Assembly: GCA_036377595.1 (NCBI GenBank)
Contig: DASUYB010000105.1
Span: 124,001 to 188,000 of the forward strand
DNA: 64,000 nt
Direction of reading: 5' to 3'
From: Longimicrobium sp.
GTDB lineage: Bacteria > Gemmatimonadota > Gemmatimonadetes > Longimicrobiales > Longimicrobiaceae
Shown piece after piece: positions 439 to 40,625 of this stretch. Under the pieces are notes generated by a model that saw nothing but the letters and a program-made list of their open reading frames with translations, made no database searches and was not told the DNA's origin. Numbering within the stretch: the stretch's first letter is position 1; each line of letters starts with the position of its first letter. Both the position numbers and the translations under genes were made by a program.

Positions 439-2615
439 TGACGCTGCTGGTCAACCAGATACTGATGTGCACAGAGTCCGAGCGGGATCCGGTGCGCGTC
501 CTCTGGCTTGAGCCGGCACATCTGGCGGCACGGCGGGTTGCGGTCATTCGGCTGGCCCGCGACGAGAGAATCCCGGAGTGGGAGGATCTGGAGGCACTCA
601 CAGCGGCGGTCGACAACGGGGTTTACGTCATCGCCTCCGTCGACACTTTCGCGCCCCGAGCCTCGCTCGAGGAAGACCTCACGGAGGTAGAGCGGCGCGT
701 GCGGGACGCCCGGTACGGGATCATCAGACCGCTCGTCGAGGACCCGGAGCAGAGCATCCTGTACGAGGACCTGCGTGGGCCGCTGATCAAGTCGGCCGCC
801 GAGCAGAGCCACACGAGCAGGAAGAACGTCTACCATCTGCTGGGGCTCTATTGGCGGGGAGGACAGACGCCTAATGCTCTCGTTCCCGCTTACGTCAACT
901 CCGGCAGGTCCGGTTCCCGGATCACCGCCGGCGCCGACACCACCACCAAACGCGGGCGGCCGAGAAAACCGGTTCCCGGCAAGGAGCACATCGTAGGAAT
1001 CAACGTCAATGAACGCACCCGGAAGCTGCTTCTGCTGGGCGCCAAGGAATTCCATGAGAAAGGCGGGATGCCGCCGAAGGAAGCGTACGACGCGACGATC
1101 AAGACCTACTTCGCCTGCGGCTACGAAGTTGCTGCCGATGGAACCCTCGAACCGATCATCCCAGCGGAGGACGACCGGCCGTCCTTCGGCCAGTTCTGTT
1201 ACCACTACGGCGCCGAGCGGGATAGCCGTCGCGCGCTCATCACGAGAAAGGGCCACAAGCGTTTCCTGCTGGAGAACCGGCCTGTCCTGGGCACCTCGTA
1301 CCACCTCGGACCGGCACCCGGCGCGCTGTACCAGATCGACTCGACCAGGGCCGACATCTCTCTCCGGAGCTCGCTCCGCGCTTCCAGGAAGATCGGGCGC
1401 CCCATCATCTACGTCGTGCGAGACCTGTTCAGCCGGATGATTGTGGGGTTTCACATCGCTCTCGAGGGTCCCAACTGGCTGGGGGTTCGTTCCGCGCTGC
1501 AGTCAGCGTTCATGGACAAGGTGGCCTTCTGCGCACGTTTTGGCAGGGTCATCGCGGCGGAGGACTGGCCCTGCTTGAATGTCCTTTGCGACGAAATCCT
1601 TGGTGATCGCGGACCAGCCGAGATCCTTAGCAAGAATGCCGATTTCCTGATCAACAGCTTTCGGGTTCGGGTGAGCAACGCTGCCCCGAGCCGGCCGGAC
1701 TGGAAAGCGGTGATCGAACGGGTCTTCCCGCTCTACCATCACGCGTATTCATGGGAGCCGGGCGCGGTTCATGGCCCTCGCGAACGGGGAGAGCCTGATC
1801 ACCGTCTCGACGCGGTGCACACCCTCTCCAGCTTTACGCGGCTCTTCCTCGAACTGACCCTCCAGTTCAACAACTGCACCTGGCTGGGCGCCTACGATCC
1901 CGACGCCGACGTGCTGCGCGACGAGGTTCCCTTGATTCCCCGGGAGCTGTGGAACTGGGGGATTCATAACCGGCAGGGGGCGCTCCGTCCCGTGAGCGAT
2001 CCGGAAGCCCTGCGTCGTGCCCTCATGCGCACAGTCGAGGCGAGAATCACGCGGGAGGGCATCTACGTCCCCGACTTGGGCCTTCATTACACGTCACCGA
2101 CGGCTGAGGCCGAAGATTGGTTCGTTCTGGAACGCGGCCGGAAGCGCATAAAGCTGGAGCTAGGTATGGAAGACCTGGACGTTTCCGAGGCATACCTTCG
2201 CCTCGACCGCGGCCGCACCGTGGAGCGTTGCGAGTTGCTGCCGCGCTATGCCCCATTCCGGGGTCGGAGCCGCGATGAGGTCCGTGACGAGCGCGCGTGG
2301 GAACGAGTGCTGGCGAGAGATGCCGAGCGTGAGCTCGCGCAGCAGCGAGTGGGACACCTTCACCGCCGGGATGTCATCCGGGAGGAGCAACTCGCGGAAG
2401 TCGCCGCCGATCTCGCGGAAACGGGGGATAAGCCCCGGATCGCGACGCGCGCTGAAATGGCGTTGGAGCGGAAGCATGCGCGCGCGGAGCAGGCCACCAC
2501 CGCAGGCTCGAGCACCGCGAAGCACCGGGTCCCGACCGAGGCGGCCGACGACGAATCGATCGTCCCTGCGGCAAGTGAGCTCGACCTTCTCCGTTCGGTA
2601 GGAGAGGACGAATGA
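435..2615 (+). CDS. tnsB: TnsB-like DDE transposase
   Basis: 726 residues, close to the usual 700 for TnsB. The protein binds the transposon ends and joins their 3' strands to target DNA. The rve/integrase core shows the three metal ligands: D302 in LYQIDSTRAD, D391 in ILGDRGPAE and E428 in KAVIERVF. The spacings of 89 and 37 residues are very close to those of Tn7 TnsB. The N-terminal third should hold the end-binding helix-turn-helix domains, and the charged C-terminal tail (after about residue 660) is where TnsB contacts TnsC. I chose the ATG at 435, which overlaps the tnsA stop; an upstream in-frame ATG at 357 would run deep into tnsA. About 53 bp of its 3' half (2166-2218) recurs at 6011-6063. 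Confidence 0.95.
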   Translation: MMTLLVNQILMCTESERDPVRVLWLEPAHLAARRVAVIRLARDERIPEWEDLEALTAAVDNGVYVIASVDTFAPRASLEEDLTEVERRVRDARYGIIRPLVEDPEQSILYEDLRGPLIKSAAEQSHTSRKNVYHLLGLYWRGGQTPNALVPAYVNSGRSGSRITAGADTTTKRGRPRKPVPGKEHIVGINVNERTRKLLLLGAKEFHEKGGMPPKEAYDATIKTYFACGYEVAADGTLEPIIPAEDDRPSFGQFCYHYGAERDSRRALITRKGHKRFLLENRPVLGTSYHLGPAPGALYQIDSTRADISLRSSLRASRKIGRPIIYVVRDLFSRMIVGFHIALEGPNWLGVRSALQSAFMDKVAFCARFGRVIAAEDWPCLNVLCDEILGDRGPAEILSKNADFLINSFRVRVSNAAPSRPDWKAVIERVFPLYHHAYSWEPGAVHGPRERGEPDHRLDAVHTLSSFTRLFLELTLQFNNCTWLGAYDPDADVLRDEVPLIPRELWNWGIHNRQGALRPVSDPEALRRALMRTVEARITREGIYVPDLGLHYTSPTAEAEDWFVLERGRKRIKLELGMEDLDVSEAYLRLDRGRTVERCELLPRYAPFRGRSRDEVRDERAWERVLARDAERELAQQRVGHLHRRDVIREEQLAEVAADLAETGDKPRIATRAEMALERKHARAEQATTAGSSTAKHRVPTEAADDESIVPAASELDLLRSVGEDE

Positions 2616-4102
2616 GCCATCACCCGCCGCTGCCCCTGGGCACATGGACCGAGGCCGTGTACCGGGACCAGGCGCTCGACGACTATCGCGGGAATCCGCT
2701 GATCGAGGCGCTCCCGCCGATTCGCGAGTCGAAGGAGATCGCGGCGAACCTCACCTACAGGCCCGCGTACGACGAGGGCATGCGGAACCTCTCTCCGGCC
2801 GAACGCGCGCACGCCACGGAGAAAGTGCTGTCCTTCATCCAGCCGCTCTCGATCCATGTCGATCTCGCGCACCGGATCTCGCGCCTGCTTCGGAACGGTC
2901 TCATGGCCCGGAACCCCATTCGCCCGGAGTACCGCCCCAACATGGAGCGCGGGCTCGAGGCGATGCGGGCCCGCCGCTCCATAGCCGGGCCCCGGGCGAC
3001 CGGGATGGTCGTCGCCGGCCTGAGCGGGGTGGGCAAGACCACGGGGATCGAGGGGGTGCTCGGAATGGATCCCCAGGTCATGCTTCACACGGCGTACGCG
3101 GGCCGGCCATTCATCCACACGCAGATCGTCCACCTGATCCTACAGTGCCCCGCGAACAGCTCGGTGCGGGCGCTCTGCATCAACTTCTTCCTCTCCGTCG
3201 ACAAGCTGCTCGGGACGGACTACGAGCACCGTTACGTACGGTACAAGGCGACGGCCGAGGTCCTGCTGTCGCACATGGCGAGGATCGCGGCAGTACACTC
3301 CATCGGCGTCCTGGTGATCGACGAGATCCAGAACCTCGCGAGCGCGCGCAGCGGCGGTGAGCAGGTGATGCTCAATTTCTTCTCCGAGCTGGTGAACACC
3401 ATCGGCGTGCCAGTCGTGCTGGTCGGCACGCCGAAGGCAGTCGACGTGCTCACCCGCCAGTTCAGGCACGCGCGACGGAGCACCGGCCAAGGCGACATGT
3501 TCTGGGACCGCATGAGCGTGGCGGCGCCGGAACACGAGGCGGAGTGGTCGTTCTTCTGCGAGCGGCTGTGGCGCTACCAGTTCACCAAACAAGCGACGCC
3601 CCTGACCACCGAGCTCCGGAAAGCGCTGTACGAGGAGAGCCAGGGAATCACGGATGTCGTGGTCAAGCTGTACATGCTCGCGCAGCTGCGCGCGATCCAG
3701 ACCGGGACCGACAAGATCACGGTCGGGCACATCCGCACGGTTGCCCACGACAGCCTGCGATGCATCAAGCCCGTGCTCGACGCGCTCCGGCGGAATGACC
3801 GCGCCTTCCTGGCCAAGGCCGACGACGTCCTGTCTCGCGGGCTGAAAGAGATCGTCCTCGGGGCGAGGCCGCTGCAAGCACCAATCCTGCCGGCGGCGAC
3901 CCAGCCAGCGGCGGTGCCCCTGGAGGGGCCTGTCATGCCACCCAAGGCGCCACCGAAACCCCGCTCCCGGCGCCGGCGAAACGTTCCCGCCGCGCCGCAG
4001 ACGCTGGAAGCGATCGTCGCTGCCGGCCGCGCGGCAGGCACGTCCCCGTATGATGCCCTGAAGGCGGCCGGAATCGTCGCGGACGACGCCCCGGCGGCCT
4101 GA
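2612..4102 (+). CDS. tnsC: TnsC-like AAA+ transposition regulator
   Basis: 496 residues. An ATPase of the TnsC/TniB family that links target-bound TnsD to the TnsAB transposase. The Walker A motif GLSGVGKTTG lies around residues 135-145 and Walker B VLVIDEIQNL has its acidic pair at D237-E238. A sensor-like VPVVLVGTPKA follows. The C-terminal 90 residues are proline- and basic-rich (PPKPRSRRRR), consistent with a flexible tail. The ATG overlaps the tnsB stop (ATGA). Length and order fit tnsC of Tn7-like elements (about 550 residues in Tn7) better than the shorter TniB (about 300). Confidence 0.93.
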   Translation: MSHHPPLPLGTWTEAVYRDQALDDYRGNPLIEALPPIRESKEIAANLTYRPAYDEGMRNLSPAERAHATEKVLSFIQPLSIHVDLAHRISRLLRNGLMARNPIRPEYRPNMERGLEAMRARRSIAGPRATGMVVAGLSGVGKTTGIEGVLGMDPQVMLHTAYAGRPFIHTQIVHLILQCPANSSVRALCINFFLSVDKLLGTDYEHRYVRYKATAEVLLSHMARIAAVHSIGVLVIDEIQNLASARSGGEQVMLNFFSELVNTIGVPVVLVGTPKAVDVLTRQFRHARRSTGQGDMFWDRMSVAAPEHEAEWSFFCERLWRYQFTKQATPLTTELRKALYEESQGITDVVVKLYMLAQLRAIQTGTDKITVGHIRTVAHDSLRCIKPVLDALRRNDRAFLAKADDVLSRGLKEIVLGARPLQAPILPAATQPAAVPLEGPVMPPKAPPKPRSRRRRNVPAAPQTLEAIVAAGRAAGTSPYDALKAAGIVADDAPAA

Positions 4103-6003
4103 TGCTCCTCTTCCCGACCCTCCAGCCCGAGGAGCTCCTGTACAGCGCCTGCGCGCGCTACGCCGAGCTGTTCCGGTATCCGGGTAGCCGCTGGGTGGCC
4201 CGGGACCTGTTCGGAACCCACCAGGCGACAGCGGTCCTGGATCTACCCTTGGGCCTAGACACCTTCGTGTCGCACTTGCCCCAGGACACCTACGACGCGG
4301 CGGACCTAGTTCGGCTGCACACCACCTTGCCGTACTACAGCCACTTCGTGGGCGCCGCGAAGCTCGCCGAGATCACCACCCGGATGCGGACCGGCGGCCG
4401 CGGCCCCGTTCCCCACACGCTCTTGGGCGTGGGAAGGGGACGGGTGAGCCCGCCCTCGCACCTGCTCTACTGCGCCTCTTGCGCCCGCGAGGACCTGGCC
4501 ACGGCCGGTGAGCCGTGCTGGCGGCGGGTCCACCAGCTTCCGGGGGTGTACGTCTGTCCCGACCATGGGGAGCCGCTGCTGTCGGGGCCGGTGCGGCGGA
4601 AGGACCTCGTCCGCGTCTTCGACTACGACAGCCTGCGCGCCACTCAGGAACGGCCCCCCAGACCCAACCGGTTGCCGGATACCGTACCCGAACGGCTGAG
4701 CTGGCTCGCGGATGCCACGCTGCGCCTGCTCCAGATGCCTCCATGCATGCTCACCCCCGAGGAGCTCCGCGAGCGCCACCGCGCCGGGCTACGGCGGATG
4801 GGCCTGCTGTCACCGCGGGGGACGCTGAGAACCCACGAGGCCGAGCAGCTGCTCGTTGCACACTGGGGCGATTCGCTGCTCGCGTCGCTGGGCTTGCACC
4901 CTGCCTCGGCCGAACGGCGGATCAGCAGCTGGGTGCGTGCGCGTGCGGGGGCAGCGTCGCGGGTGTCGGCGGGGCACCCGCTGCAGCACCTGCTGCTCAT
5001 AGGGATCTACGGGATCACACCTGAAGAATTCCTGGAGGGTAACCGCTGCACGTCGACGGTGAAGGCAGTGGGATCGGCCAGCGAGTGCGCGAATCCGGCG
5101 TGTCCGAACTACCTGCCGAGAATCCGGCGCTCTGCCGCGAGGCGGCTCTACCACCGCACTGGTGCTGCCTGGCACTGCCGGACGTGCGGAGCGCGGTACG
5201 AGGAGTTCAGCGGCCACTGCGGGGTGCGGTTCATCGAGACCGGCGACCTGTGGGACGCGGAACTGTGCCGACTCGTGGAACTCGGCACGTCCGTTCGCGA
5301 GTTGCAGGCGTGGTGCAGCATGCGGTACGAGTTGGTTCTGTGTCACTGCGCGCGTCTGGGCGTCTGGCGCGATGCGTGGGGGAATCCGGACGACTACAGG
5401 CTCGCCGTCCGCCAAGCGCTCGCGGTGACGATGCGGGAGCGCAGGCGAGCGGAGTGGCTGCGTCTGCGTTCGAACTTCCCCGACCCCGGCGTACACGCGC
5501 TGCGAGCGCAGGCACGGGCCCTCTGGTCTTGGCTGCGTGCGAACGACAATGCTTGGCTGCTCGCCAACTCGCCGGCGCACGCGAAACGTCCGCCAACCCT
5601 CGTGAGCTGGATCGACTGGTCGCAGCGTGACCGCGAGCTGCACCCGCGGGTGGAAGACGCGATAGAAGCACTCCTGGAGCAACACCCGCCAGCCCGGCTG
5701 ACGGTCGCATCGATTGGGCGCCAAGCCGGCGCACGCACGCTCGTCGTCAGGGAACGGGGGCGTCTGCCACTTACCGCGGCGACCGTGAAGGCCGCGGTCG
5801 AGTCGGTGGCCGCGTTCACGCGCCGGCGGATCGAGGTCGCCGCCGAGGACCACGTTCGGGCGGGGATGATCCCGAACTATTCGGATTTCTTAGAAGTTTG
5901 TGGGATAGAATGGCGAAACCGGACGACCTACGAGGGCGAGTTGTGGCAGGCACTGCAGCGGATTCATGATGCGTTGGCACCGGCTCGGCAGCACGTCGGA
6001 TAA
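4102..6003 (+). CDS. tnsD: TnsD/TniQ family target-site selector
   Basis: 633 residues, the long TnsD type rather than the 250-400-residue TniQ of CRISPR-guided elements. TnsD binds one chromosomal sequence and recruits TnsC there. The N-terminus has the TniQ opening PTLQPEELLYSACAR, followed by a zinc finger C124-x2-C127 ... C152-x2-H155 (VCPDHGEPLL). A second cysteine group, C329, C334, C359 and C362 (CANPACPNY ... CRTCGARY), may be a further zinc site. The C-terminal half is variable and should hold the site-specific DNA-binding domains. The start overlaps the tnsC stop by one base. The attachment site cannot be read from this side, because in Tn7 the target gene flanks the tnsA end. Confidence 0.9.
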   Translation: MLLFPTLQPEELLYSACARYAELFRYPGSRWVARDLFGTHQATAVLDLPLGLDTFVSHLPQDTYDAADLVRLHTTLPYYSHFVGAAKLAEITTRMRTGGRGPVPHTLLGVGRGRVSPPSHLLYCASCAREDLATAGEPCWRRVHQLPGVYVCPDHGEPLLSGPVRRKDLVRVFDYDSLRATQERPPRPNRLPDTVPERLSWLADATLRLLQMPPCMLTPEELRERHRAGLRRMGLLSPRGTLRTHEAEQLLVAHWGDSLLASLGLHPASAERRISSWVRARAGAASRVSAGHPLQHLLLIGIYGITPEEFLEGNRCTSTVKAVGSASECANPACPNYLPRIRRSAARRLYHRTGAAWHCRTCGARYEEFSGHCGVRFIETGDLWDAELCRLVELGTSVRELQAWCSMRYELVLCHCARLGVWRDAWGNPDDYRLAVRQALAVTMRERRRAEWLRLRSNFPDPGVHALRAQARALWSWLRANDNAWLLANSPAHAKRPPTLVSWIDWSQRDRELHPRVEDAIEALLEQHPPARLTVASIGRQAGARTLVVRERGRLPLTAATVKAAVESVAAFTRRRIEVAAEDHVRAGMIPNYSDFLEVCGIEWRNRTTYEGELWQALQRIHDALAPARQHVG

Positions 6004-18057: not shown

Positions 18058-18711
18058 ATGAAGTCAGAAGCCCTTCTGAACGTGGTGCTGGTCGTCCTCG
18101 CCGTTTGCGCTCTGACGGTTACCGGCCTCGTGGTCCGGCGAGAGCTCATTTCGGCCCCGGACGACCAAGGCGCTCCCGAGCCGACGAGGGTCGCGGACTG
18201 GCAGGCGTTTGCCGCGGCCGGACATCGTCTCGGCGCTCAGCGTGCGCGTGTCACCATCGTCGAATTCTCCGACTACCAGTGCCCCTTCTGCAAGCAGCTC
18301 TACGGTCGGCTGGAGGAGTTCCGGAAGTCCCGGCCTAACGTGGTCGTGATTCACCGCCAGTACCCGCTCGATGGGCATCCGCAGGCCCGTCCAGCCGCCA
18401 TGGCTTCGGAATGCGCGGCCGAACAAGGTCGGTTCGAGCAGATCCAGAGCACCCTATACGCGCGACAGGATTCGCTCGGGTCCGTCCCGTGGGAGAGCAT
18501 CGCCGCCGCGGCGGGCGTACCCGACCTGACCCGTTTCGATCGGTGCATGCAGAGCGGAAAATACTCGGCCGCGATCCAAGGCGACGTGGACGCGGGTCAT
18601 CAGCTGGGAATCCGGGCCACACCCACCCTGCTGATCAACGACATGAAAGTCGAAGGCGCGCTAACGGACGAGGCCCTTGCACACTACGTCGACGCGGCGG
18701 CACGCAAGTGA
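18058..18711 (+). CDS. DsbA-like thiol-disulfide oxidoreductase
   Basis: 217 residues from the ATG at 18058. An N-terminal membrane anchor (LLNVVLVVLAVCALTVTGLV) is followed by a thioredoxin fold with the active site SDYQCPFCKQLY (C75, C78) and, late in the protein, the cis-proline loop RATPTLLIND. This is the DsbA/thioredoxin_4 family (compare DsbG/BdbD), acting in the periplasm to form or reshuffle disulfides. The next gene encodes a tiny exported protein with six cysteines, a likely client. Confidence 0.85.
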   Translation: MKSEALLNVVLVVLAVCALTVTGLVVRRELISAPDDQGAPEPTRVADWQAFAAAGHRLGAQRARVTIVEFSDYQCPFCKQLYGRLEEFRKSRPNVVVIHRQYPLDGHPQARPAAMASECAAEQGRFEQIQSTLYARQDSLGSVPWESIAAAAGVPDLTRFDRCMQSGKYSAAIQGDVDAGHQLGIRATPTLLINDMKVEGALTDEALAHYVDAAARK

Positions 18712-18718
18712 GATCGAC

Positions 18719-18738
18719 GGCCCGCACCTCGGCGGGCC
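18719..18738. terminator. Hairpin between the DsbA-like gene and the mini-protein gene
   Basis: GGCCCGC and GCGGGCC around the loop ACCTCG, 7 bases after the DsbA-like stop. It may end or attenuate transcription before 18794. Confidence 0.5.
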
Positions 18739-18793
18739 CTTCGCAGCCCTCCAGGCTGCGGCCTTTCCCAGTCTCCCGCACCGGACGGTGGAG

Positions 18794-19012
18794 ATGAAAA
18801 AGAAGCTGATCGCGTGTTTCATCGCGGCAGGCATCACGATGGGCGGCTCGTTCTACCTGGCATCTCCCGCCCACGCGACCTCGATGTTCGGTTGCCCCGA
18901 CGGGTGGTGGAAGGCGTGCGGGAGTGCGCCGGCGGGGTGCTACATCTCGGCCAGCTGTGTCGTGGGCAACGGCGGCACGCCGTTCGTCACCTGCACGGTG
19001 GTCTGCAGCTAG
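18794..19012 (+). CDS. Exported six-cysteine mini-protein
   Basis: 72 residues. The ATG at 18794 follows GGTGGAGATG. A classical signal peptide (MKKKLIACFIAAGITMGG, cleavage after SPAHA near residue 28) leaves about 44 residues with six cysteines, in GCPD, KACGS, GCYI, ASCVV, TCTV and VCS. It could be a disulfide-locked secreted peptide such as a bacteriocin, toxin or surface ligand. It lies between a disulfide oxidoreductase and an Oar-like receptor and is followed by a strong terminator. No family is recognised. Confidence 0.65.
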   Translation: MKKKLIACFIAAGITMGGSFYLASPAHATSMFGCPDGWWKACGSAPAGCYISASCVVGNGGTPFVTCTVVCS

Positions 19013-19043
19013 GCCCGCGCCGAACCGTGCGGCGCCCGACGGG

Positions 19044-19078
19044 AGGCTCCCGGCCGGATTTCACACGGCCGGGAGCCT
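19044..19078. terminator. Strong terminator after the mini-protein
   Basis: A 13-bp perfect stem (AGGCTCCCGGCCG at 19044-19056 and its complement at 19066-19078) with a 9-base loop, followed by TTCC. Confidence 0.75.
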
Positions 19079-19214
19079 TCCCGCGTCCTGGCGCGCGTCG
19101 GGATGTACATTGACGAAATTCCGTGGTGCCGCACCCATGACGAGATACCCGTTGTCGACGAATCCCGGCCGATCTCCATTGCGGACCGAACGCCGCTGCC
19201 GATGCGTGAGCGAC

Positions 19215-22200
19215 ATGCCTCCCCGTCGTGCTCACGGCGCTGGATTCCTGATGCTCCTCCTGATCCTCTTGGGGGCGGCCGCACCTGCTCGTGGCTGGGC
19301 CCAGGTCCGAACGGACCGGATCGAAGGCATCGTGATCGGCACCGGAGCGCAGCCGATCGCCGGCGCGACGGTTCTAGTCGTCCGCGCTCCGGACCGGCAG
19401 TCGTTCACCGGGACGACGGACGCGAGCGGAGGTTTCTCAATTACGATTCCGCAGGGCACGGGCGACTATCTCCTGCATGTCTCGGCTCCGGAATGGAACA
19501 GCTACCGGCAGCGCGTTTCGGCGACGGGTGACGGTCCACTGCCCAGGCTGGAGATCCAGCTCACGCCGGTCGTGGTGAACCTGGCACCGGTGGTCGCTTC
19601 GACCCAGCGCCTGAAGCCGCAGCGGAGCCAAGGGATCATCTCCGAGACGGGTGCGGCCGAGCATCCCGCTGCCGGCGTGGTTGGGGCCGTGAACTCGGCG
19701 CACGCTGGTAACCTGGCGAGCGTAGCCGCCACCGTCCCCGGGGTAACGCCGACTGCAGACGGGTTCGCCGTACTCGGGCTCGCCGGACAGAACCAGACAC
19801 GGCTGAACGGATTGGACTTCTCCGGGGCCGAGATTCCGCGAGACGTACGCACGCGTACACGGGTCGCAACCACCACGTACGATCCCGCACGGGGCGGCTT
19901 CGGCGGGGCAGAGGTCTCGGTCGACCTCGCTCCCGGTGGCGGGTACACGTTCCGGCGCGCCCACGTGGGCGGCGACATTCCCGGCCTCGGCGGGAACTCC
20001 GTCTTCGCCGCCCCCCGGACCGGTGGTGGGCTGCGGCTGAGCACGGGAACGGAAGGCGAGCTTCCCGGCCGGTTCAACTACAATGCGGGCATTCAGATAA
20101 CACGCGAGTCGAGCGGCGCGTACTCCATCGCGGAACTTCGGAGGCAGCTCGTCGGATCTGGCCAGGCGTCGCAGGCATCGGTCAACGAGCTGGGAAGCAC
20201 GCTCTCCGCACTCGGGGTACCGTCGCTCTCCGGCGCGGGCGCGGCGCTCTCGCCGGTCCGCGCTACCTTCCTCGGGCGGATCGACCACGATCCCCGGAGC
20301 GACCGCACCTGGGGAGTGGTCGCGTACCTTGACCACTCTACTGCGAATGCTCCCGGCCTGAGCGTGGCAGCGCCTGGCCAGGGCGGCCGCCGCGAAGCAT
20401 GGAACGGAACTCTCCAGGGCACGTACTCGTTCTATTTTGGGCGCGAGTACCTCAACGAAACCCAGAGCGCCATCTCGTTCCGGCGCTCCGCCGTGACTCC
20501 GGTCTTCGCAATTCCGCGCGGCATCGTGGCGCTCGCAAACGACTCCGTGCAGGACGGGGCGGGCGCATTCGCGTTTGGCGGCAACTCGCTCCAGGAAGGC
20601 CGAAACCGCTCGTGGACCTGGGAGACGACGAACACGACCCAATGGTACACGGCTGGCAGCCGCCACAAGCCCAAGCTCTACACGCAGCTCCGGGTGGATG
20701 AGGATTCGCGCTCCGCGGGCGGTGACCTCCTGGGCACGTTCACCTATCCCTCGCTCGCGGCGCTCGCCGAGGACCGGCCGTCTTCGTTCACACGCGTGCT
20801 GAGTGACGCGACCGCGTCCGGCGGGGAGGTGAGCGGCGTGGTTTCCGTAGGGGACCTCTGGAGAGTGAATCCCTCCCTTCAACTGCTCTACGGGGCGCGT
20901 CTGGAGGAGAGCTGGTTCACCGCGCGACCCGCATTCAACCCGCAGATCTCCTCACTCTTCGGCGCAAGGACCGATCGCGCGCCCGGCGGTGTGCACGTGA
21001 GCCCCCGGATCGGGTTCACGTGGGCGTACACGCCCGGTTCTCCGCCTGCACCCGACCAGCGCAGCGTCCTCGGAACACGGGTCCGCGCGCCGGTGGGCGT
21101 GCTCCGCGGCGGATTCGGCGAATTCCGCCTTCTCCTGCCCGCCGACCTCCTGGCCGGTACGCGAGTGTTCACTGGCCTGCCGGGGGGCGCGGAGCGCGTG
21201 CGGTGCGTCGGACCCGCGGTGCCGACGCCCGACTGGGCCGCGTTCCTGGCGGGGGCGCCCCTTCCGTCAACGTGTGGAGACGGAAGCCGCTACGTCGATA
21301 CCGCGCCCAGCGTAGAACTTTTCTCCTCCAACTACTCGGCCGCGCGGAGCTGGCGCGGAAACCTGGCCTGGACCTCACGGCTCCTCCGGAGGGTGGACTT
21401 CACCGTCGAGGGCGTCTACTCGCTGAACCTCGACCAGTCCGGAACGCGGGACCTGAACTTCCGGGGGGAACCGCGGTTCACCCTGCCGGCGGAATCGGGC
21501 CGGCCGTTCTTCTCGGATCCCGCGGACGTAGATCCCGCCACGGGAGCGTCGTCAGCGGCGAGCAGCCGGATCTCGACTCTCTTCGGTCCCGTCTCGGAGC
21601 ACCGGTCGGATCTCCGCTCGACGAGCCGCCAGGTGACGCTCACGCTGACCCCCGATCTCAACTTCAGCGACTACTTCTTCAGCGTCTCCTACACCCTCGC
21701 CGATTCACGAGCCCAGGCCCGCGGGTTCGACGCACCGACCGCCGGGAACCCTTCCGAGCGGGAATGGGCACCCGGCGACTGGGACGTGCGGCACCAGGTG
21801 ATCGTGCAGGCCGGAGTGGACGTCCCGGACTGGTTCTCCTTCACCCTCTTCGGGCGCATCTCCTCGGGCCTGCCGTACACGCCCGTGGTAGCCGGTGACG
21901 TCAACGGAGACGGGTACGCCAACGACCGGGCCTTCGTCTTCGATGCCGGTCGGCACGCTTCACTGGCCACCCTGCTCCAGGGCGCACCGGCTGGAGCAGC
22001 GGCCTGCCTGCGGAAGCAGATCGGCCGGATTGCTGAGCGGAACAGCTGCCGCGGACCTTGGAGCGCCATGCTGAACGCTCGGCTGCAGGTTGCTCCGCCG
22101 CTGCCGCACACCGCCCGCAGGGCGACGGTCGCGCTGGAAATCGCGAATCCCTTGGGCGCGCTCGACCAACTCGTCCACGGCGGCGACGATCTCCACGGCT

Positions 22201-22799
22201 GGGGAACGCAGCGCAGCGCGGATCCGGTGCTCTACACCGTGCGCGGGTTCGACCCGTCCACGCGGGAATTCGATTACGCGGTGAACCGGGGATTCGGGCG
22301 TTCGAAGGCAAACTTGGGCGATCCGTTCCGCATCTCATTCGACGTGAGCATCGACCTCAGTCGTCCGCTCCCGGAGCAGCAGATGGAGAGGTCGCTCAAG
22401 AGCGCGCACGGGCGGCTGCCGGCCGATTCTCTCCTGCGGCGGTATGCCCGCAGCGTTCCGGATATCTACGACCAGATCCTGATCGAGAGCGACTCACTCC
22501 TGCTCACGCCCGCGCAGTCCGCAGCTCTCAAGGAGGCGCAGAAGGCCTACCGCTCAAAGCTCGACGTCGTCTGGCGGTCGCTGGTGGATTACTTGGCGGC
22601 GCTACCGGAGCACTACAACGGAGCGGGGGCCCTCCAGCGTCAGGAGGCGGCGCTGGACAGCGCGTGGGAGATCTCCAGGCTCGAAGGGGCTACGATCAAG
22701 AGCGTCCTGTCGCCTCTACAGCTACAGATGGTACCAGGACAGGTTGGTTTCCTCATCAACTCACCGGGGCCGGTCCACATTAGGACGTACATCCAGTGA
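19215..22799 (+). CDS. Oar-like TonB-dependent outer-membrane receptor
   Basis: 1194 residues from the ATG at 19215. This start places a signal peptide at the very N-terminus (FLMLLLILLGAAAPARGWA); an upstream ATG at 19137 adds 26 residues of unlikely leader. A carboxypeptidase-regulatory-like beta domain (RIEGIVIGTGAQPIAGATVL) leads to a plug-like region (GVTPTADGFAVLGLAGQNQ) and a long barrel with RTRTRVATTTYDPARGGFGG and periodic aromatic strands. This is the Oar/CarboxypepD receptor type, used for large substrates or protein export. The last 130 residues are helical (TPAQSAALKEAQKAYRSKLD), an unusual C-terminal extension beyond the barrel; the usual terminal aromatic residue is absent. 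Confidence 0.85.
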   Translation: MPPRRAHGAGFLMLLLILLGAAAPARGWAQVRTDRIEGIVIGTGAQPIAGATVLVVRAPDRQSFTGTTDASGGFSITIPQGTGDYLLHVSAPEWNSYRQRVSATGDGPLPRLEIQLTPVVVNLAPVVASTQRLKPQRSQGIISETGAAEHPAAGVVGAVNSAHAGNLASVAATVPGVTPTADGFAVLGLAGQNQTRLNGLDFSGAEIPRDVRTRTRVATTTYDPARGGFGGAEVSVDLAPGGGYTFRRAHVGGDIPGLGGNSVFAAPRTGGGLRLSTGTEGELPGRFNYNAGIQITRESSGAYSIAELRRQLVGSGQASQASVNELGSTLSALGVPSLSGAGAALSPVRATFLGRIDHDPRSDRTWGVVAYLDHSTANAPGLSVAAPGQGGRREAWNGTLQGTYSFYFGREYLNETQSAISFRRSAVTPVFAIPRGIVALANDSVQDGAGAFAFGGNSLQEGRNRSWTWETTNTTQWYTAGSRHKPKLYTQLRVDEDSRSAGGDLLGTFTYPSLAALAEDRPSSFTRVLSDATASGGEVSGVVSVGDLWRVNPSLQLLYGARLEESWFTARPAFNPQISSLFGARTDRAPGGVHVSPRIGFTWAYTPGSPPAPDQRSVLGTRVRAPVGVLRGGFGEFRLLLPADLLAGTRVFTGLPGGAERVRCVGPAVPTPDWAAFLAGAPLPSTCGDGSRYVDTAPSVELFSSNYSAARSWRGNLAWTSRLLRRVDFTVEGVYSLNLDQSGTRDLNFRGEPRFTLPAESGRPFFSDPADVDPATGASSAASSRISTLFGPVSEHRSDLRSTSRQVTLTLTPDLNFSDYFFSVSYTLADSRAQARGFDAPTAGNPSEREWAPGDWDVRHQVIVQAGVDVPDWFSFTLFGRISSGLPYTPVVAGDVNGDGYANDRAFVFDAGRHASLATLLQGAPAGAAACLRKQIGRIAERNSCRGPWSAMLNARLQVAPPLPHTARRATVALEIANPLGALDQLVHGGDDLHGWGTQRSADPVLYTVRGFDPSTREFDYAVNRGFGRSKANLGDPFRISFDVSIDLSRPLPEQQMERSLKSAHGRLPADSLLRRYARSVPDIYDQILIESDSLLLTPAQSAALKEAQKAYRSKLDVVWRSLVDYLAALPEHYNGAGALQRQEAALDSAWEISRLEGATIKSVLSPLQLQMVPGQVGFLINSPGPVHIRTYIQ

Positions 22800-27949: not shown

Positions 27950-28656
27950 CACCGGGACGCCAGCATGGGTGCTTCGATCCGCATGGACGTGAGGAGCGTG
28001 CGTTGATCTTCCTCGCGCAACTCACCGTCCGACCGGGTGGATACAGGATTGGCCGCACCTTTGGTTGGGCGCACGCAGATGACTTGTACCTCTTGGCGGG
28101 GACGACCTACGTATGGGCCGATGCACTGGCCCGGTTCGCGGATCGTCGGCACGCTGACGTGCGCCACGCGAACGTGCGAACTGCGGCACTCCCGTCGCCC
28201 CTGTTCCGAATCACGCAGAGCGGGATGGATACCGTTGCACGGCTTGTGGGCGAGATAGCACCTAGCGTTTGCCCACCTTGCCTGGGCGAGTGTTGCACGG
28301 ACGTGTATGCCTCGAACCTTGGCCAGTGGGCGCTGAGGGCGCTGCGCGAAGCTTACCCAAACTGGTTGACAGCGGCTGAGGTGCTCAAACCAATTAGACG
28401 CTGGAATCGCTGCGGAAACGTTCCCTACGTGACCACTGGTGATTTGACGGCGCTGGTGTCCTCCGGCCTTGCGGAATCGTGTTGCACAGGCGACCACCGC
28501 TCCACGCCCGCCTACCGGGTGTCGCGGGCAGGGTGCACGGCGACGCTCTTGGAGTGGTACGGTCCCGATCCGGAAGCCCGGATCTTCTCCGATCACGATT
28601 GGGGGCACGTGCTGAAACCTCCAATGCGAGGCTTTCTATATGGCAGTGGCAACTAG
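27946..28656 (+). CDS. Winged-helix-like protein, second of a tandem pair
   Basis: 236 residues from a GTG at 27946 overlapping the previous stop. Same layout as its neighbour: RALIFLAQLTVRPGGYRIGR ... LFRITQSGMDTVARLVGE, then ALREAYPNWLTAAEVLKPI ... DLTALVSSGLAES ... AYRVSRAGCTATLLEWYG. It adds a cysteine cluster in the linker (CPPCLGECC) that might bind a metal. The pair probably arose by duplication. After it, 28657-29102 carries no gene I can support; a minus-strand stretch near 28892-29040 has protein-like text (HHDFVRWHMGANDPKNLA) that may be a relic. Confidence 0.55.
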   Translation: MTPGRQHGCFDPHGREERALIFLAQLTVRPGGYRIGRTFGWAHADDLYLLAGTTYVWADALARFADRRHADVRHANVRTAALPSPLFRITQSGMDTVARLVGEIAPSVCPPCLGECCTDVYASNLGQWALRALREAYPNWLTAAEVLKPIRRWNRCGNVPYVTTGDLTALVSSGLAESCCTGDHRSTPAYRVSRAGCTATLLEWYGPDPEARIFSDHDWGHVLKPPMRGFLYGSGN

Positions 28657-29102
28657 CATTCGGGCGAACAGGGATAGGGCCACCGCACTCCGCGAGTTGG
28701 CGAAACAGGGGTGGCGGTCTACGCGCGGTCTGGATCATTGATCCCCGCGCTGGATTCACCAGATTCGCGATCATATCGTCCCCGGTCCTCGCCGCCTTGG
28801 TCGCGCCAGCGATGCCGACCATACGGCATCCTGGTGGCTGCGCACGTGCCAGGATCAAGTCAGGTCAGCCGAGTTGGCGTTCCAGTAGTGGTCAAGCGCG
28901 GCTGCTCCTTCCGAAAGCCCGCGCGAGGAGGCGGCGCGTGCCGCTCACGGTGACGCAGGCGAGATTCTTGGGATCGTTCGCGCCCATGTGCCACCGGACG
29001 AAATCATGGTGCAGCGTGCCCGTTCCGCGTATTCTGTCCGGAGAAGGAAAGAGAGCAGCGCACGCAACTAACATCACCTCGTCCCTGGCCGGAGTCCCTC
29101 CG

Positions 29103-30605
29103 ATGCCGAATTCCCGCCTCCTCGTCGCTGCATCCCTTGGAAGTGGACTCCTGCTCTCTGCCTGCACGGAGCGCTTCCAGAGCCCGGGCGGTCCGGATCC
29201 GAGCGGCCCGAACTTTACTGTCTCGAGCTACGCCGACCAGATCGTCATCAACGAAGTGATGGCCGATCCCAATGCAGTCACCGACACGGACGGCGAGTGG
29301 TTTGAGGTGACGAACCGCGGGACCACCGCGGTGGATATTCAGGGCTGGACGATCGCCGGCAACAACGACACGGACCACACGATCACCAGCTCGGTCTCCA
29401 TCCCGGCCGGCGGCTACGTGGTCCTGGCACGAAACGGCAACTCAAGCTTCAACGGTGGCGTTACGGCCAACTACGCCTACGGCACGATGACGATGGCCAA
29501 CACCGCGGACTGGATCGCGCTGCGAGACGACGCGGGCGCGAGCGTAGATTCGGTGGCGTGGGCGACGACCATGCCTGCGGGATCGAGCCGCGGCGTGACG
29601 GATCCTGACGCCGACAACCTCGACGCCAAGGGCACGAACTGGCATACGAGCAACGTCGCTTTCGGTAGTGGGGACAAAGGCACTCCCGGAGCACAAAACG
29701 ACGGCCGCCGTAGCCCACTTACCGTTCGGATACTCGAGGTGGGTCAGGGCGACGCGATCTACATCACCAACGGCTCCTCGAAGGTGATGGTTGACGGCGG
29801 CCCGTCGATGACGACGATGGCCAGCCGGATCAGCTCGCTCGGGCTGGACAACCAGACGATCAACTATATGATCCTCTCACACGCTCACGACGACCACTAC
29901 GCGGGGCTGCGAGAGTTCTTCAAGACCAGCCATAGCATCCGGATCGGATACTTCTTCGAGAACAAGGACGCCTCGGCCGCAAGCACATTGGCCTCACTAC
30001 GCGATTCCATCAACGCGCGGGTCGGCCGCGGTGAGCTGACCTACCGCGACACCGACGACCCCTGCGCTACCGGCGCGTCTGTCTGCACGATCCTCCTCGA
30101 CGGCGGCGCCAGGCTCCACGTCCTCAAGCCCAAAACTTCCGACACCAACCCCAACAACCGCTCGGTGGCCGTGAAGTTGGTGGGCCCTGACAGCGCCTCG
30201 TTCACGATGTGGATGGCCGGCGACGCTGAGCACGAGGAGATCGAGTGGTTCGACAACACGGCCGGCTACGACACGTCGCTCGGGATGAACGTTGACGTGC
30301 TCAAGGCCGATCACCACGGGTCATGCAACGGCATTACCAGCCGCTTGCTCGACTTGCTCACGCCCACGTACGTCACCATGGGCGTGAGTTCGACGAATAC
30401 CTACCACCACGTACACACCCAGACCAAGACGCTGCTGACGAGCCGGTCGATCCCCTGGTACCGAACGGATGAGAACGGGCAGATCACGTTCACGAGCTCC
30501 GGCGCGCCGGGGGGCGGGTACTCGGTCAGCATCAGCCGCGGCAGCGCCAGCATGAGCGGCTCAGCGGACGCCGCCTCGTCCGACACCAGCTGCAACAGCC
30601 TCTAG
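29103..30605 (+). CDS. Lipoprotein with lamin-tail and ComEC-type metallo-beta-lactamase domains
   Basis: 500 residues. Signal and lipobox LLLSAC at residues 15-20. A lamin-tail domain follows (DQIVINEVMADPN ... GEWFEVTNRGTTAVDIQGW ... PAGGYVVLARNG), residues 45-190. From residue 210 a metallo-beta-lactamase domain of the ComEC/Rec2 kind: VRILEVGQGDAIYI, the metal motif SHAHDDHYAGL (H260, H262, D264, H265), and LKADHHGS. Secreted enzymes with this pair are thought to be surface nucleases or phosphodiesterases. It is followed by a strong hairpin. The upstream open frame to 28479 is ignored because it lacks a signal peptide. Confidence 0.85.
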   Translation: MPNSRLLVAASLGSGLLLSACTERFQSPGGPDPSGPNFTVSSYADQIVINEVMADPNAVTDTDGEWFEVTNRGTTAVDIQGWTIAGNNDTDHTITSSVSIPAGGYVVLARNGNSSFNGGVTANYAYGTMTMANTADWIALRDDAGASVDSVAWATTMPAGSSRGVTDPDADNLDAKGTNWHTSNVAFGSGDKGTPGAQNDGRRSPLTVRILEVGQGDAIYITNGSSKVMVDGGPSMTTMASRISSLGLDNQTINYMILSHAHDDHYAGLREFFKTSHSIRIGYFFENKDASAASTLASLRDSINARVGRGELTYRDTDDPCATGASVCTILLDGGARLHVLKPKTSDTNPNNRSVAVKLVGPDSASFTMWMAGDAEHEEIEWFDNTAGYDTSLGMNVDVLKADHHGSCNGITSRLLDLLTPTYVTMGVSSTNTYHHVHTQTKTLLTSRSIPWYRTDENGQITFTSSGAPGGGYSVSISRGSASMSGSADAASSDTSCNSL

Positions 30606-37230: not shown

Positions 37231-38448
37231 ATGGCTCGGCGATTACTCCTGCTCGGTGATGTCGCGATTGTCCAACGGGGAGGCATCAAACAGCCGGTCT
37301 TTTTCGTCGGTGGAGCAACGTGGATCCTGGACCTTGACGCGCCCCTCCTGCCGGGCCCATTCCTCAAGCGTGGAGCTTTTTCGGGACACTCCTCGCGGGA
37401 GCGGGATGTGAGCTCGCTGGAGCAGTTCGCGGTAGACTCGAGCGCATCGAGGTACCGAGAGACGCTCGGAACACTCGGTTCCGAAGTGGGGGGTGGGGCG
37501 GGGCCGCCGCTTCCCCATTTTGCCGAGGCTCTCGCCCACATCGCGGAGGGGTATCGTCGGATCGGCGATATTCCGCGGGCGCTTCGTCTGTTCGGGACCT
37601 CCTTCTCCCTGTGGCGCCGTCTCGGACAGCGCAGCCGAATGTGCTGGTGCCTCTGGGGACTCGGCAGCACCCTCCGGGTAGTCGGCCGCTACCCTGAAAG
37701 CACGTACTGGCTGCGGCAGGCGTTCGACATCGCGCGTTCCTCGGGCGAGAGGCGGTGCGCGTTGTGGTCGGCCGCGGAGATTGCCGAGGTCGATCGCATC
37801 GTCGGGAATCGCCGCCGGGCGCTCGCTGCCCATTTTGACTTGATGGACGAGTTCTGCAAACTCGGCGACGAGCGCGGGGTCGCATGGGCCTATTCAGGAA
37901 TCGCGCAGATTTACCGAATGGAGGGAGAATTTGCCCGGGCGGCGCAGATGTTCTGGCGTGCTGAAATTCAGAGTGTCCTGATGGGGGATCCGGTGGGGGT
38001 TGCCTGGGCGCACCGAGGCCAATCGGAAGTCGCCAAAGAACGCCACGACCTCACCACCGCAGAGGGGATGGCGGCACGAGCGATCCAAGGATTCGAGTCG
38101 AAAGGCTACCCCACAGGGGTGGCATACGCGAAGAAGACGCTCGCGGAGATCCAGCTCGCGAGAGGGGACCTGATCTCCTCTCACGCGACGATCCGCTCCG
38201 CGATCGCAGACTTCAAGCAGGCAGGTGAAACTCGCGGCTATGCGCTCGCGCTCAAGACACTCGGTGACGTGCACCGAGAGAGTGAGGAGTTCTCGGAGGC
38301 GCTGCTTCAGTACCGAACAGCTCGGAGCCTGATCGGCGAAATGCGGTTGCGCCTGTCCACGAGCTTTGATCCGACGGCATCCTGGGTCGCCCTGCGCCGG
38401 CGGTTTGAGAAACGGCGCTTCTTTCACGGTGGGAGGAGGCCGGGTTGA
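37231..38448 (+). CDS. TPR-repeat partner of the SIR2 effector
   Basis: 405 residues from the ATG at 37231. From about residue 95 onward TPR hairpins follow one another (HFAELAHIAEGY-like text RRIGDIPRALRLFGTSFSLW; GVAWAYSGIAQIYRMEGEFA; GVAYAKKTLAEIQLARGDLI; GYALALKTLGDVHRESEEFS). The first 90 residues are unique. The stop overlaps the TTG start of the SIR2 gene (TTGA), so both are made together. A TPR protein coupled to a SIR2-TPR enzyme suggests a sensor or regulator for the effector, possibly a toxin-antitoxin-like relation. Confidence 0.7.
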   Translation: MARRLLLLGDVAIVQRGGIKQPVFFVGGATWILDLDAPLLPGPFLKRGAFSGHSSRERDVSSLEQFAVDSSASRYRETLGTLGSEVGGGAGPPLPHFAEALAHIAEGYRRIGDIPRALRLFGTSFSLWRRLGQRSRMCWCLWGLGSTLRVVGRYPESTYWLRQAFDIARSSGERRCALWSAAEIAEVDRIVGNRRRALAAHFDLMDEFCKLGDERGVAWAYSGIAQIYRMEGEFARAAQMFWRAEIQSVLMGDPVGVAWAHRGQSEVAKERHDLTTAEGMAARAIQGFESKGYPTGVAYAKKTLAEIQLARGDLISSHATIRSAIADFKQAGETRGYALALKTLGDVHRESEEFSEALLQYRTARSLIGEMRLRLSTSFDPTASWVALRRRFEKRRFFHGGRRPG

Positions 38449-40625
38449 TCGCGACTTTGTTCGGCGACCCTTCCCGTCCAAAGACATTCCTCGTGGGCGC
38501 TGGCATCTCGCGGGATGCTCCCGCCTCCCTTCCAACTGGGGCCGAGTTCTCGGCAGCGATCCTTGATGCCGTCGTCGCCGGAGATTCGTTCCTCGCGGCG
38601 GCCGTGGCTCCGCTGATGACAAAGCTGTGGGCGGGTGCGCTGGGTTGCCGCCTAGAGGTTTTGCTGGAGATCGCCAGGGACGGCCTCGGAGATGCCGTCG
38701 TGGGAATTACGGAATGCCTGCTGGGGGGCTCCCCCAACCAGTACCATTTCGAGCTCGCCGCGGCGCTGAACGCCGGTCACACAGTAGTGACTGTGAACTT
38801 CGACATGCTGATCGAAGCGGCGTACGAGGCGCTCTATGGCCCGCATGGCCTTCCAGTGGTCGCATCCACCGCGCATGGATGCGCATCGCTACTGCGGACT
38901 TGGCCTCCGCGAACCGGCTTGCTCTTCAAGATCCACGGGTCGCTGCGCGACACCCGGGGGAGGCGCGCGTGGGGCTCCATCCAGGCGACGCTTGCCTCAA
39001 TGAGCAACGGGCTTCCGGGCCCCAAGAAGAACCTGCTGCGAAAGGTACTACGCGATCACGACGTTGTGATCATGGGGTACAGCGGGATGGACGACTTCGA
39101 CATCACGCCGTGTCTTCGCTCCGACCTGCCGCACGCCCGGGTCCTCTGGATCCACCACGAGGCAACCCGAATGCGCCTCCGTTCCTCGACAGCCCTCGCA
39201 CGAGCCACCGCTTCCGCGTACCCGAGCACCACGATGGTCGCCCGGGTGCCGGAGGGACTGCTCGCGACCGGCAGAACGCGCGCCGTCGTGGGACGCATCC
39301 CCTTCTATCCGCGGGTCCCTACTGGACGCGGAACACACGGAGTTACGGTAGACTGGAAGCGCAAAATGGTACGGGCGATCGCCTCGTTTTCTCTCTCGCG
39401 CTATCAACGGCTGCGCTACGTCGCGAAGCTTCTGCAGCACAACGGACTGCTCGCCGAGGCCGAAGCGTGCTTCCTGGAGATCCTTCGTTCGGTTTCGGGG
39501 TTCGACCGCGCGACCACCCTCGACGACCTCGCACAGTGCAAGTACCTGCAGCGAGCGTTCGCCGAGGACCTTCGGCTCCGCGCTGAGGCGCGACGAAAAG
39601 CTCGCGCCGACCACAGCCGGAGCGCCGCCGTCTTGGTCGGGGGTACGTGGCTAGGTTCCGGCGAAAGCTACCGGAATATCGCGAATTACCGCTCCGCCCG
39701 TGCCGCGTTCGAACGGGCACTGGCGTGTCTTCCCCCTGATGGCGAGTTCACCAAGCGAGGGTATGCGCTCTCCGGCATCGCCGGCATCGACCGCATGAGG
39801 AGCCGGTTCCCGGAAGCCTACGATTCGTACCAGGCGGCGATCGCCTGCTTCAAGCGGAGCAGGCACTTGGCCGGAGCGCTCTACGCGGAATGGGGAATCG
39901 CCGAGGTGCAGAAGTACTGGGGAAACCTGGACCGTGCGATGCGCCACCATGAATCGGTGCACCGGTCTGCCGAAGCCATGGGGCATCGGACGCTCACCGG
40001 CGGGGCATTGTGGGGACGCGCGGAACTGCACCGCATACGCGCAGAGTTCGGAGAGGCTGCGAGCCTTTACGAAGAGGCGCTGGACCGGTTCCCGCCTGGC
40101 GATCTCGCGGGTTGCTCCTGGGTCAAGGAAGGCATCGCGCAGGTCAAGGCCGCGACGGGTAAGTCACCTATTCGGGAACTTACCGAGGCGGAGTCCGGCT
40201 TCGTGCATCTTAGAGCGACACTCGGGTTCCATGCGGTCCTCCTCGATCGGACGCTATTCCTTCTTCAGGAAGGTCGGCCGGCCGACGCCCGCGCGGAGCT
40301 CGGACGTGCCCGGGTGAACGAGCTGCCCCCCAGGGACCGGGCGAACTACTATGTCGTCGCCGGCCAGGCATACGGGATTCCCAGGGGTGAAGCGATGCTC
40401 CGGAAAGCCGAGAGGATTTACCGAAGGCTGGAAATGCACCACGCACAGGTCGGCGTGGGCATACTCCTCCTCGAGTCCCGTGGCGTGCTGTCGACCCACG
40501 ACGGAAACTTCGCCGCTGTGCGCCGCTTGGCGCGGGCGCACGACTACTCCGTAGAGCTACGTGCCCTATCCGCGCTCGCGCTCTCGGGCGGTGGGAAGTC
40601 GGGGTACAGGTTTCCTCTCTACTGA
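38445..40625 (+). CDS. SIR2-TPR protein, probable NAD-depleting defence effector
   Basis: 726 residues from a TTG at 38445. The N-terminal 250 residues are a SIR2-type NAD-binding domain: FLVGAGISRDAP (G18-S22), VVTVNFDMLIE (N118, D120), LFKIHGSLRD with the likely catalytic H164, and VIMGYSGMDDFDI. This is the prokaryotic defence sirtuin group (ThsA, DSR, SIR2-APAZ), which destroys NAD after phage sensing. From about residue 300 TPR hairpins fill the rest (LLQHNGLLAEAEACFLEIL; NYRSARAAFERALACLPPDG; RMRSRFPEAYDSYQAAIACF; YWGNLDRAMRHHESVHRSA). No membrane segment. The pairing with an upstream TPR gene does not match a system I can name. Confidence 0.8.
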   Translation: MIATLFGDPSRPKTFLVGAGISRDAPASLPTGAEFSAAILDAVVAGDSFLAAAVAPLMTKLWAGALGCRLEVLLEIARDGLGDAVVGITECLLGGSPNQYHFELAAALNAGHTVVTVNFDMLIEAAYEALYGPHGLPVVASTAHGCASLLRTWPPRTGLLFKIHGSLRDTRGRRAWGSIQATLASMSNGLPGPKKNLLRKVLRDHDVVIMGYSGMDDFDITPCLRSDLPHARVLWIHHEATRMRLRSSTALARATASAYPSTTMVARVPEGLLATGRTRAVVGRIPFYPRVPTGRGTHGVTVDWKRKMVRAIASFSLSRYQRLRYVAKLLQHNGLLAEAEACFLEILRSVSGFDRATTLDDLAQCKYLQRAFAEDLRLRAEARRKARADHSRSAAVLVGGTWLGSGESYRNIANYRSARAAFERALACLPPDGEFTKRGYALSGIAGIDRMRSRFPEAYDSYQAAIACFKRSRHLAGALYAEWGIAEVQKYWGNLDRAMRHHESVHRSAEAMGHRTLTGGALWGRAELHRIRAEFGEAASLYEEALDRFPPGDLAGCSWVKEGIAQVKAATGKSPIRELTEAESGFVHLRATLGFHAVLLDRTLFLLQEGRPADARAELGRARVNELPPRDRANYYVVAGQAYGIPRGEAMLRKAERIYRRLEMHHAQVGVGILLLESRGVLSTHDGNFAAVRRLARAHDYSVELRALSALALSGGGKSGYRFPLY

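Follow-up and report, generated by a model that had tools for sequence, protein, structure and literature searches.

The stretch of DNA analysed here (the window) is 64,000 nucleotides long and comes from Longimicrobium sp. (assembly GCA_036377595.1, contig DASUYB010000105.1; G000:C105:124001-188000 of a 7.2-Mb draft genome). On its + strand lie, in order, genes for a DsbA-like thiol oxidoreductase, a small cysteine-rich peptide and a very large Oar-like receptor with the fold of a TonB-dependent transporter (TBDT), an arrangement described in an earlier note and confirmed in the sequence. We further show that many members of the class carry sets of a membrane-anchored DsbA and a cysteine peptide, the peptide differing from set to set, and that the third partner varies as well, the receptor being one choice among several and not an obligate member. 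We propose, with about even confidence, that the locus serves to mature and deliver one secreted disulfide-rich peptide, as a module dedicated to it.

The oxidoreductase had been called DsbA-like on account of its CPFC motif, and the Thioredoxin_4 domain and the motif are both present (Table 1). Three relatives 47-49% identical to it have an equivalent N-terminal anchor, as do, by hydropathy, 70 of the 73 DsbA proteins in our set; the window genome encodes three anchored copies at E up to 1e-32, and also a VKOR (E 3.1e-30). When A1, a profile built from four anchored DsbA sequences, was run on 394 class genomes, 119 gave matches at E up to 1e-32. The DsbA set was drawn from 60 regions at the top of the class ranking and in the family list, plus 18 receptor regions, at a cut-off of 150 bits that leaves out lower matches such as L110; L037, L045 and L047 were left out as duplicates, and G251:C89 and G181:C67, also left out, score nearly the same as included regions. 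A same-strand peptide that is predicted to be exported, has at least four mature cysteines and lies within 1.5 kb accompanies 54 of 73 anchored-DsbA genes, compared with 9 of 73 for the opposite strand, and more than 3 kb from DsbA, on either strand, the loci hold six such open reading frames (ORFs) in total. A few of the peptides that pass this filter look spurious, for example the second one in L064.

Fully paired disulfides predict even numbers of cysteines, and even numbers prevail. Among 62 distinct peptides the counts are four (9 peptides), six (27), eight (19), nine (1), ten (4) and eleven (2); when each locus contributes a single DsbA, 56 of 59 peptides are even (binomial p 1.2e-13), compared with 32 of 45 filter-passing ORFs at 76 control loci with solitary receptors, three loci with DsbA having been left out (Fisher p 0.0017). 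The earlier suggestion that the oxidoreductase folds the peptide gains from these figures: with the strand bias and the parity, dedicated oxidative folding is the simplest reading.

A profile of one peptide subfamily, with the arrangement CC..CC..C..C (A5), finds 29 places in 17 of the 394 class genomes; 25 of these have a DsbA and/or a partner gene no more than 1.5 kb away (all but L220, L226, L229 and L236). Outside the profile seeds, 8 of 10 contig places have a DsbA and/or partner and those in G041 and G093 have none; of the eight, the DsbA set already included G194, G281 and G242, G181 almost duplicates a profile locus, and G153:C6 and G038 show a propeller only. The same profile, applied to a phylum draw of 395 genomes, gave matches (E up to 1e-4) in 13, each of which is among the 17. 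The peptide gene follows dsbA in the window and precedes it in most other loci, and diverged peptides can stand in tandem beside one DsbA, as triplets in L078 and L090 and as pairs in L074, L102 and L116. Several tandem peptides in these five loci have a CC-CC-C-C pattern, which we take to resemble animal toxin frameworks. The window genome itself holds two further modules, L070 (peptide, PDZ protein, dsbA, propeller; G000:C133, ~70 kb) and L071 (peptide, propeller, dsbA; G000:C105, ~66-68 kb), each with a different six-cysteine peptide; the peptide profile marks two adjacent peptides at C105:66 kb.

Third partners were defined by neighbour clustering and small hidden Markov models (HMMs) over 69 DsbA loci, a set skewed towards the receptor in that nine loci entered through receptor similarity, and their names are backed by Pfam and PDB profile searches. 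The commonest is an exported NHL or six-bladed propeller, at 38 of 69 loci (E up to 1e-4; NHL fold, profile E 1.2e-30). The Oar-like receptor is found at 14 of 69, or 10 in a distance-limited tally that drops L052, L061, L064 and L090, followed by a PDZ protein (10), a MacB/FtsX permease (8) and a CarboxypepD-Plug protein (7 at scores >80). Of the 25 propellers scoring >100 bits, 12 were HMM seeds. All 25 show a signal under a loose hydropathy criterion, that of L081 seeming spurious; a loose pattern finds a lipobox in 12, and 7 begin in an ATGA overlap with the dsbA stop. Four of five propellers match DUF5128 (PF17170) weakly (best E 0.039), and member 1 scores 13.4 against a cut-off of 22.9. 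The gene order peptide-PDZ-dsbA-receptor in L056 and L057 becomes peptide-PDZ-dsbA-propeller in L070; as these loci differ only in the last gene, they point to one slot filled by interchangeable envelope proteins. Three other loci (L087, L117 and L126) have, beside an anchored DsbA, proteins of ~800 residues with CarboxypepD_reg domains, a C-terminal Plug-like match and no barrel match, an odd, TBDT-like architecture.

In the family of the window organism, 18 of 21 genomes, the window genome included, contain receptor matches at E up to 1e-20, and around tailed receptors our script found small exported cysteine peptides and anchored DsbA. Eleven of the 22 anchored-DsbA genes in these genomes (E below 1e-40, by a profile built from four of them) have a receptor of this type within 5 kb. 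The pairs are those of the window, L052, L056, L057, L058, L059, L060, L061, L062, L064 and L072, three of them divergently oriented, and ten, more than chance would give, include a filter-passing secreted cysteine peptide; in the eleventh, L059, the start of a peptide resembles that of L072 and the frame then runs off. The trio recurs, then, in other genomes, though its peptide is hardly recognisable from locus to locus. The earlier note's view of the trio as a unit thus stands as far as a recurrent, co-conserved set of three genes is concerned and has to be given up for the receptor as a fixed member, in view of its presence at 14 of 69 DsbA loci, of the other exported partners found elsewhere and of the solitary receptor relatives described below.

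Table 1. Features of the trio in the window (positions are those of the window).
Feature	Position	Strand	Basis
Membrane-anchored DsbA-like oxidoreductase, 217 aa, N-terminal transmembrane (TM) segment and Thioredoxin_4 domain	18058..18711	+	PF13462 E 2e-27, PF01323 E 5.3e-16
CPFC redox motif	18280..18291	+	sequence; CPxC-type motif in 67/73 relatives
Two short stem-loops between dsbA and peptide gene	18719..18760	+	RNA fold, z -2.96
72-aa precursor of six-cysteine peptide with predicted secretion; cleavage predicted after residue 28, leaving 44 aa	18794..19012	+	sequence; passes signal-peptide/Cys filter
16-bp stem-loop directly after peptide gene	19041..19081	+	RNA fold, z -5.58, no shuffle equally stable
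Oar-like receptor, TBDT fold, 1194 aa	19215..22799	+	PF13620 E 8.7e-12, PF25183 (OMP_b-brl_4) E 3.5e-15; model
N-terminal CarboxypepD_reg domain of receptor	19320..19562	+	PF13620, residues 35-115
Receptor plug and barrel	19623..22358	+	model residues 136-1047; VIA-align Z 34.8 to Fiu, 32.8 to Cir
C-terminal helical tail of receptor, weakly CnrX/Spy/CpxP-like, probably periplasmic from TBDT topology	22368..22796	+	models and profiles

The window peptide, described earlier as an exported 72-residue product with six cysteines, does bear the marks of secretion, and it is probably held together by disulfide bonds. A Shine-Dalgarno-like GGTGGAG stands immediately 5′ of its ATG, the predicted signal peptide terminates in AHA, and all six cysteines lie in the remainder, a seventh sitting inside the signal peptide. 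A sequence search found no relative in the genome contig collection, and among 198 class genomes the peptide gave only weak matches besides itself (best other E 9.7e-4); one such match, G153:C93 (E 0.07), is the peptide of the partner locus L060, which was located via its receptor. In the four pairs of loci with the most similar DsbA proteins, conservation is lower in the mature peptide than in DsbA, at 52.6 versus 78.0, 47.8 versus 71.1, 30.9 versus 67.3, and 55.1 versus 60.2 percent, where the mature part may include signal residues, the script's cleavage sites being rough (position 14 in L056 and L057). Peptides that diverge far more than the enzyme fit a recognition or antagonism signal between cells.

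The prediction of an Oar-like receptor with an extra helical tail is upheld by domain matches and a structure model. The best start that gives the receptor a signal peptide is the ATG at 19215. The model (50 rows; predicted local distance difference test, pLDDT, 81.1; predicted template-modelling score 0.76) has a plug and a large beta-barrel, with helices from residue 1051 onward, and as a predicted structure it aligns with Fiu over 564 residues at a root-mean-square deviation of 4.8; the N-terminal CarboxypepD_reg domain completes the Oar architecture. Modelled alone, the tail reaches pLDDT 92.4. Six of eight PDB matches in a profile search with it are of the Spy/CpxP type, all weak (E 0.3-0.83), LTXXQ matches 2 of 35 receptor tails (best E 0.0067), and structure comparison gives Z 6.5-6.6 for CnrX and 4.9-5.1 for Spy. 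An unrelated helical protein outranks both at Z 7.0, so the family statistics are weak, and the best Foldseek match of the tail alone has E 1.3. These profile and fold matches are a hint of kinship to the Spy/CpxP/CnrX family, from which the tail differs in being fused behind a TBDT barrel. The genome encodes a second Oar-like receptor with a Gly-rich linker and a helical tail (L021, G000:C94:48811-52029); no DsbA lies in the flanks covered for receptors of that branch elsewhere in the family.

Stem-loops scoring at least 27 follow 16 of 62 peptide genes, compared with 1 of 62 dsbA 3′ flanks, a control that counts a multi-peptide locus repeatedly, and 0 of 310 mononucleotide shuffles. Because a scan of the + strand for terminators found no U-tailed site after the window peptide gene, a role in stabilising the RNA or in attenuation is more probable than classic termination, and the stem-loop at this position would be an attenuator or an RNA-stabilising element.

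The nearest kind of system known to us is that of the Bacteroidota NVEALA small proteins, which adjoin six-bladed propellers and TlpA-like thioredoxins. Both neighbourhoods put small exported peptides together with a thiol oxidoreductase and with a propeller, which here has the weak PF17170 matches given above. The present loci differ in their TM-anchored Thioredoxin_4 DsbA and their TBDT-type partner. Membership in NVEALA (PF14055) was rejected, with no match for the window peptide, the only peptide of the set that this Pfam scan covered, and none in its genome, the Bacteroides ihuae control being positive. As in DsbA/VKOR oxidative folding, a CPxC thioredoxin-fold enzyme of the envelope occurs in a genome that also encodes VKOR; unlike in those systems, this DsbA is paired at the level of genes with a single hypervariable small putative substrate. 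The receptor has the CarboxypepD_reg domain and TBDT fold of Myxococcus xanthus Oar, which offers a precedent for secretion: Oar is a TBDT required for secretion of PopC, a 50.8-kDa protease that has no signal peptide (PMC6434023). The Longimicrobium locus differs in its neighbouring small cysteine peptide with a signal peptide, its paired DsbA and the helical receptor tail. In the part of the PMC literature that was searched, we found no description of a peptide-DsbA-partner module and no papers on NVEALA or DUF5128.

We propose that the Sec pathway exports the precursor and that signal peptidase would free the 44-residue peptide into the periplasm, where the neighbouring DsbA, anchored in the inner membrane, may form its three disulfides and would itself be re-oxidised, probably by the genome's VKOR. 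The folded peptide could then meet an outer-membrane partner, here the Oar-like protein with its C-terminal tail in the periplasm, which by analogy with Oar and PopC in Myxococcus would most likely pass the peptide out. At other loci of the class, the partner beside the peptide and DsbA core is an exported propeller or a different envelope protein. Peptide mRNA is probably more abundant than receptor mRNA as a result of the stem-loop that follows the peptide gene.

Several observations weigh against this proposal. No filter peptide is present at 19 of the 73 anchored-DsbA genes, and the filter was written after the first examples had been seen and so was not blind. Set against antisense and distant ORFs only, a small control (11 of 14 even), the excess of even counts is not significant (Fisher p 0.08). 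Between L058 and L062, conservation of the peptide slightly exceeds that of the receptor (55.1 versus 52.7), and between L097 and L116 it exceeds that of DsbA (56.7 versus 51.5). A scan of the genome collection with the receptor alignment kept 79 loci from the best 80 of 257 candidates, all named as Gemmatimonadota (-etes, -aceae, -ales, Gemmatimonas, Roseisolibacter) or labelled plainly "bacterium". An anchored DsbA stands beside three of the 79 (L140, L142 and L200, the last with a six-cysteine peptide directly 5′ of the receptor), and the other 76 are solitary in the flanks covered, some of which lie on short contigs. Solitary receptors have the helical tail as well, which is not special to the trio, and the receptor may for both reasons serve something else; as a marker of the module it was rejected. 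Furthermore, TBDTs normally import, and since the fold is silent on direction, import or sensing is a serious rival. Gene order, co-conservation, cysteine parity, the modelled fold of the receptor and the exchange of partners are shown; oxidation, secretion, transport, its direction and the role of the module are inferred. A FastTree receptor tree of 45 rows needs 9 changes of the trio label; 16 solitary receptors fall in one branch, and the other 29 rows comprise 16 with the module and 13 without, where "solitary" refers to flanks of ~1.5 kb for many rows. Two rows counted as solitary, L055 and L063, have a cysteine peptide upstream and no DsbA seen in their flanks. A looser peptide search beside five solitary receptors (L130, L131, L132, L139 and L053) gave nothing convincing, the one candidate at L139 having three cysteines and lying 2 kb upstream.

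We also consider, as less likely than not, a private-peptide recognition system that spans the class: each locus would encode a one-off disulfide-bonded peptide, an anchored DsbA of its own to fold it and a matching outer-membrane or surface protein, and the modular partner slot (TBDT, propeller, CarboxypepD-Plug, MacB) would let one class of peptide be exported, displayed or sensed. It is also conceivable, if somewhat unlikely, that the receptor, or the propeller elsewhere, binds the peptide from outside as part of pheromone or kin recognition, each cell having a private peptide and matching receptor. A hypervariable peptide with a co-inherited partner is what such a pair would look like, the proteins that the receptor resembles best in structure are import receptors, among them Cir with microcin V, and nearly half of the strong propellers in the same neighbourhood, all exported, have the loose lipobox; set against this are the usual solitude of the receptor relatives and the lack of any signal-transduction gene among the named recurrent neighbour clusters, for which no aimed search was made.

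Hypervariability, sometimes in tandem diverged copies beside one DsbA, would also suit bacteriocin-like toxins that are matured by a dedicated DsbA, with immunity or release as the task of the third gene, and the permeases near DsbA at eight loci and the defence-rich surroundings of the window trio agree with it. A TBDT-type protein of 1194 residues or a propeller would, however, be an unusual immunity protein, and the window peptide has no toxin match in Pfam or NCBIfam; we regard this explanation as improbable. Least probable of those considered is that the unit consists of peptide and DsbA only, the receptor being a nutrient transporter whose adjacency is an accident of the lineage. The rarity of DsbA near the receptor relatives scanned would follow from it, as would the 11 of 22 strong family DsbA genes with no receptor of this type within 5 kb, some of them on short contigs. 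The 11 diverged DsbA-receptor pairs, in both relative orientations and ten with a peptide, speak against an accident, as does the receptor's occupation of the position that the propeller has in L070.

The trio had also been taken for transposon cargo. Measured in 2-kb steps, GC content (guanine plus cytosine) ranges from 0.59 to 0.69 across the first ~43 kb of the window, and is at least 0.685 to the right of this island and, to its left, in the 104-120 kb stretch of the contig. Tn7-like TniB and TnsD/TniQ genes lie at 2612-6000; the lower GC and the Tn7-like and defence genes around the trio place it in an island. Ends of a Tn7-like element were not recognised in an inverted-repeat scan, and the trio's own GC (0.66-0.69) is close to that of the flanks; the trio may be cargo of the element. 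Between 2612 and 13439, D12 and Eco57I-type methylases come after the TniB-type ATPase and TnsD/TniQ, together with an AAA/McrBC pair, which makes this a defence-rich Tn7-like island. A protein with a Lamin-tail domain and a metallo-beta-lactamase domain (28479-30602) also lies inside it, and a SIR2_2-TPR protein (38445-40622) and a RES-domain protein (41551-42384) near its right edge may belong to defence and toxin-antitoxin systems.

Annotation readily misses small secreted peptides that evolve fast, and the TM-anchored DsbA is an easily detected marker gene, which here yields ~60 candidate disulfide peptides in a little-studied class. If TBDT-type or propeller partners do bind the neighbouring peptides, these loci would provide a tractable model for cell-cell peptide recognition or for peptide export via TonB-dependent transporters, a question raised by the work on Oar and PopC.

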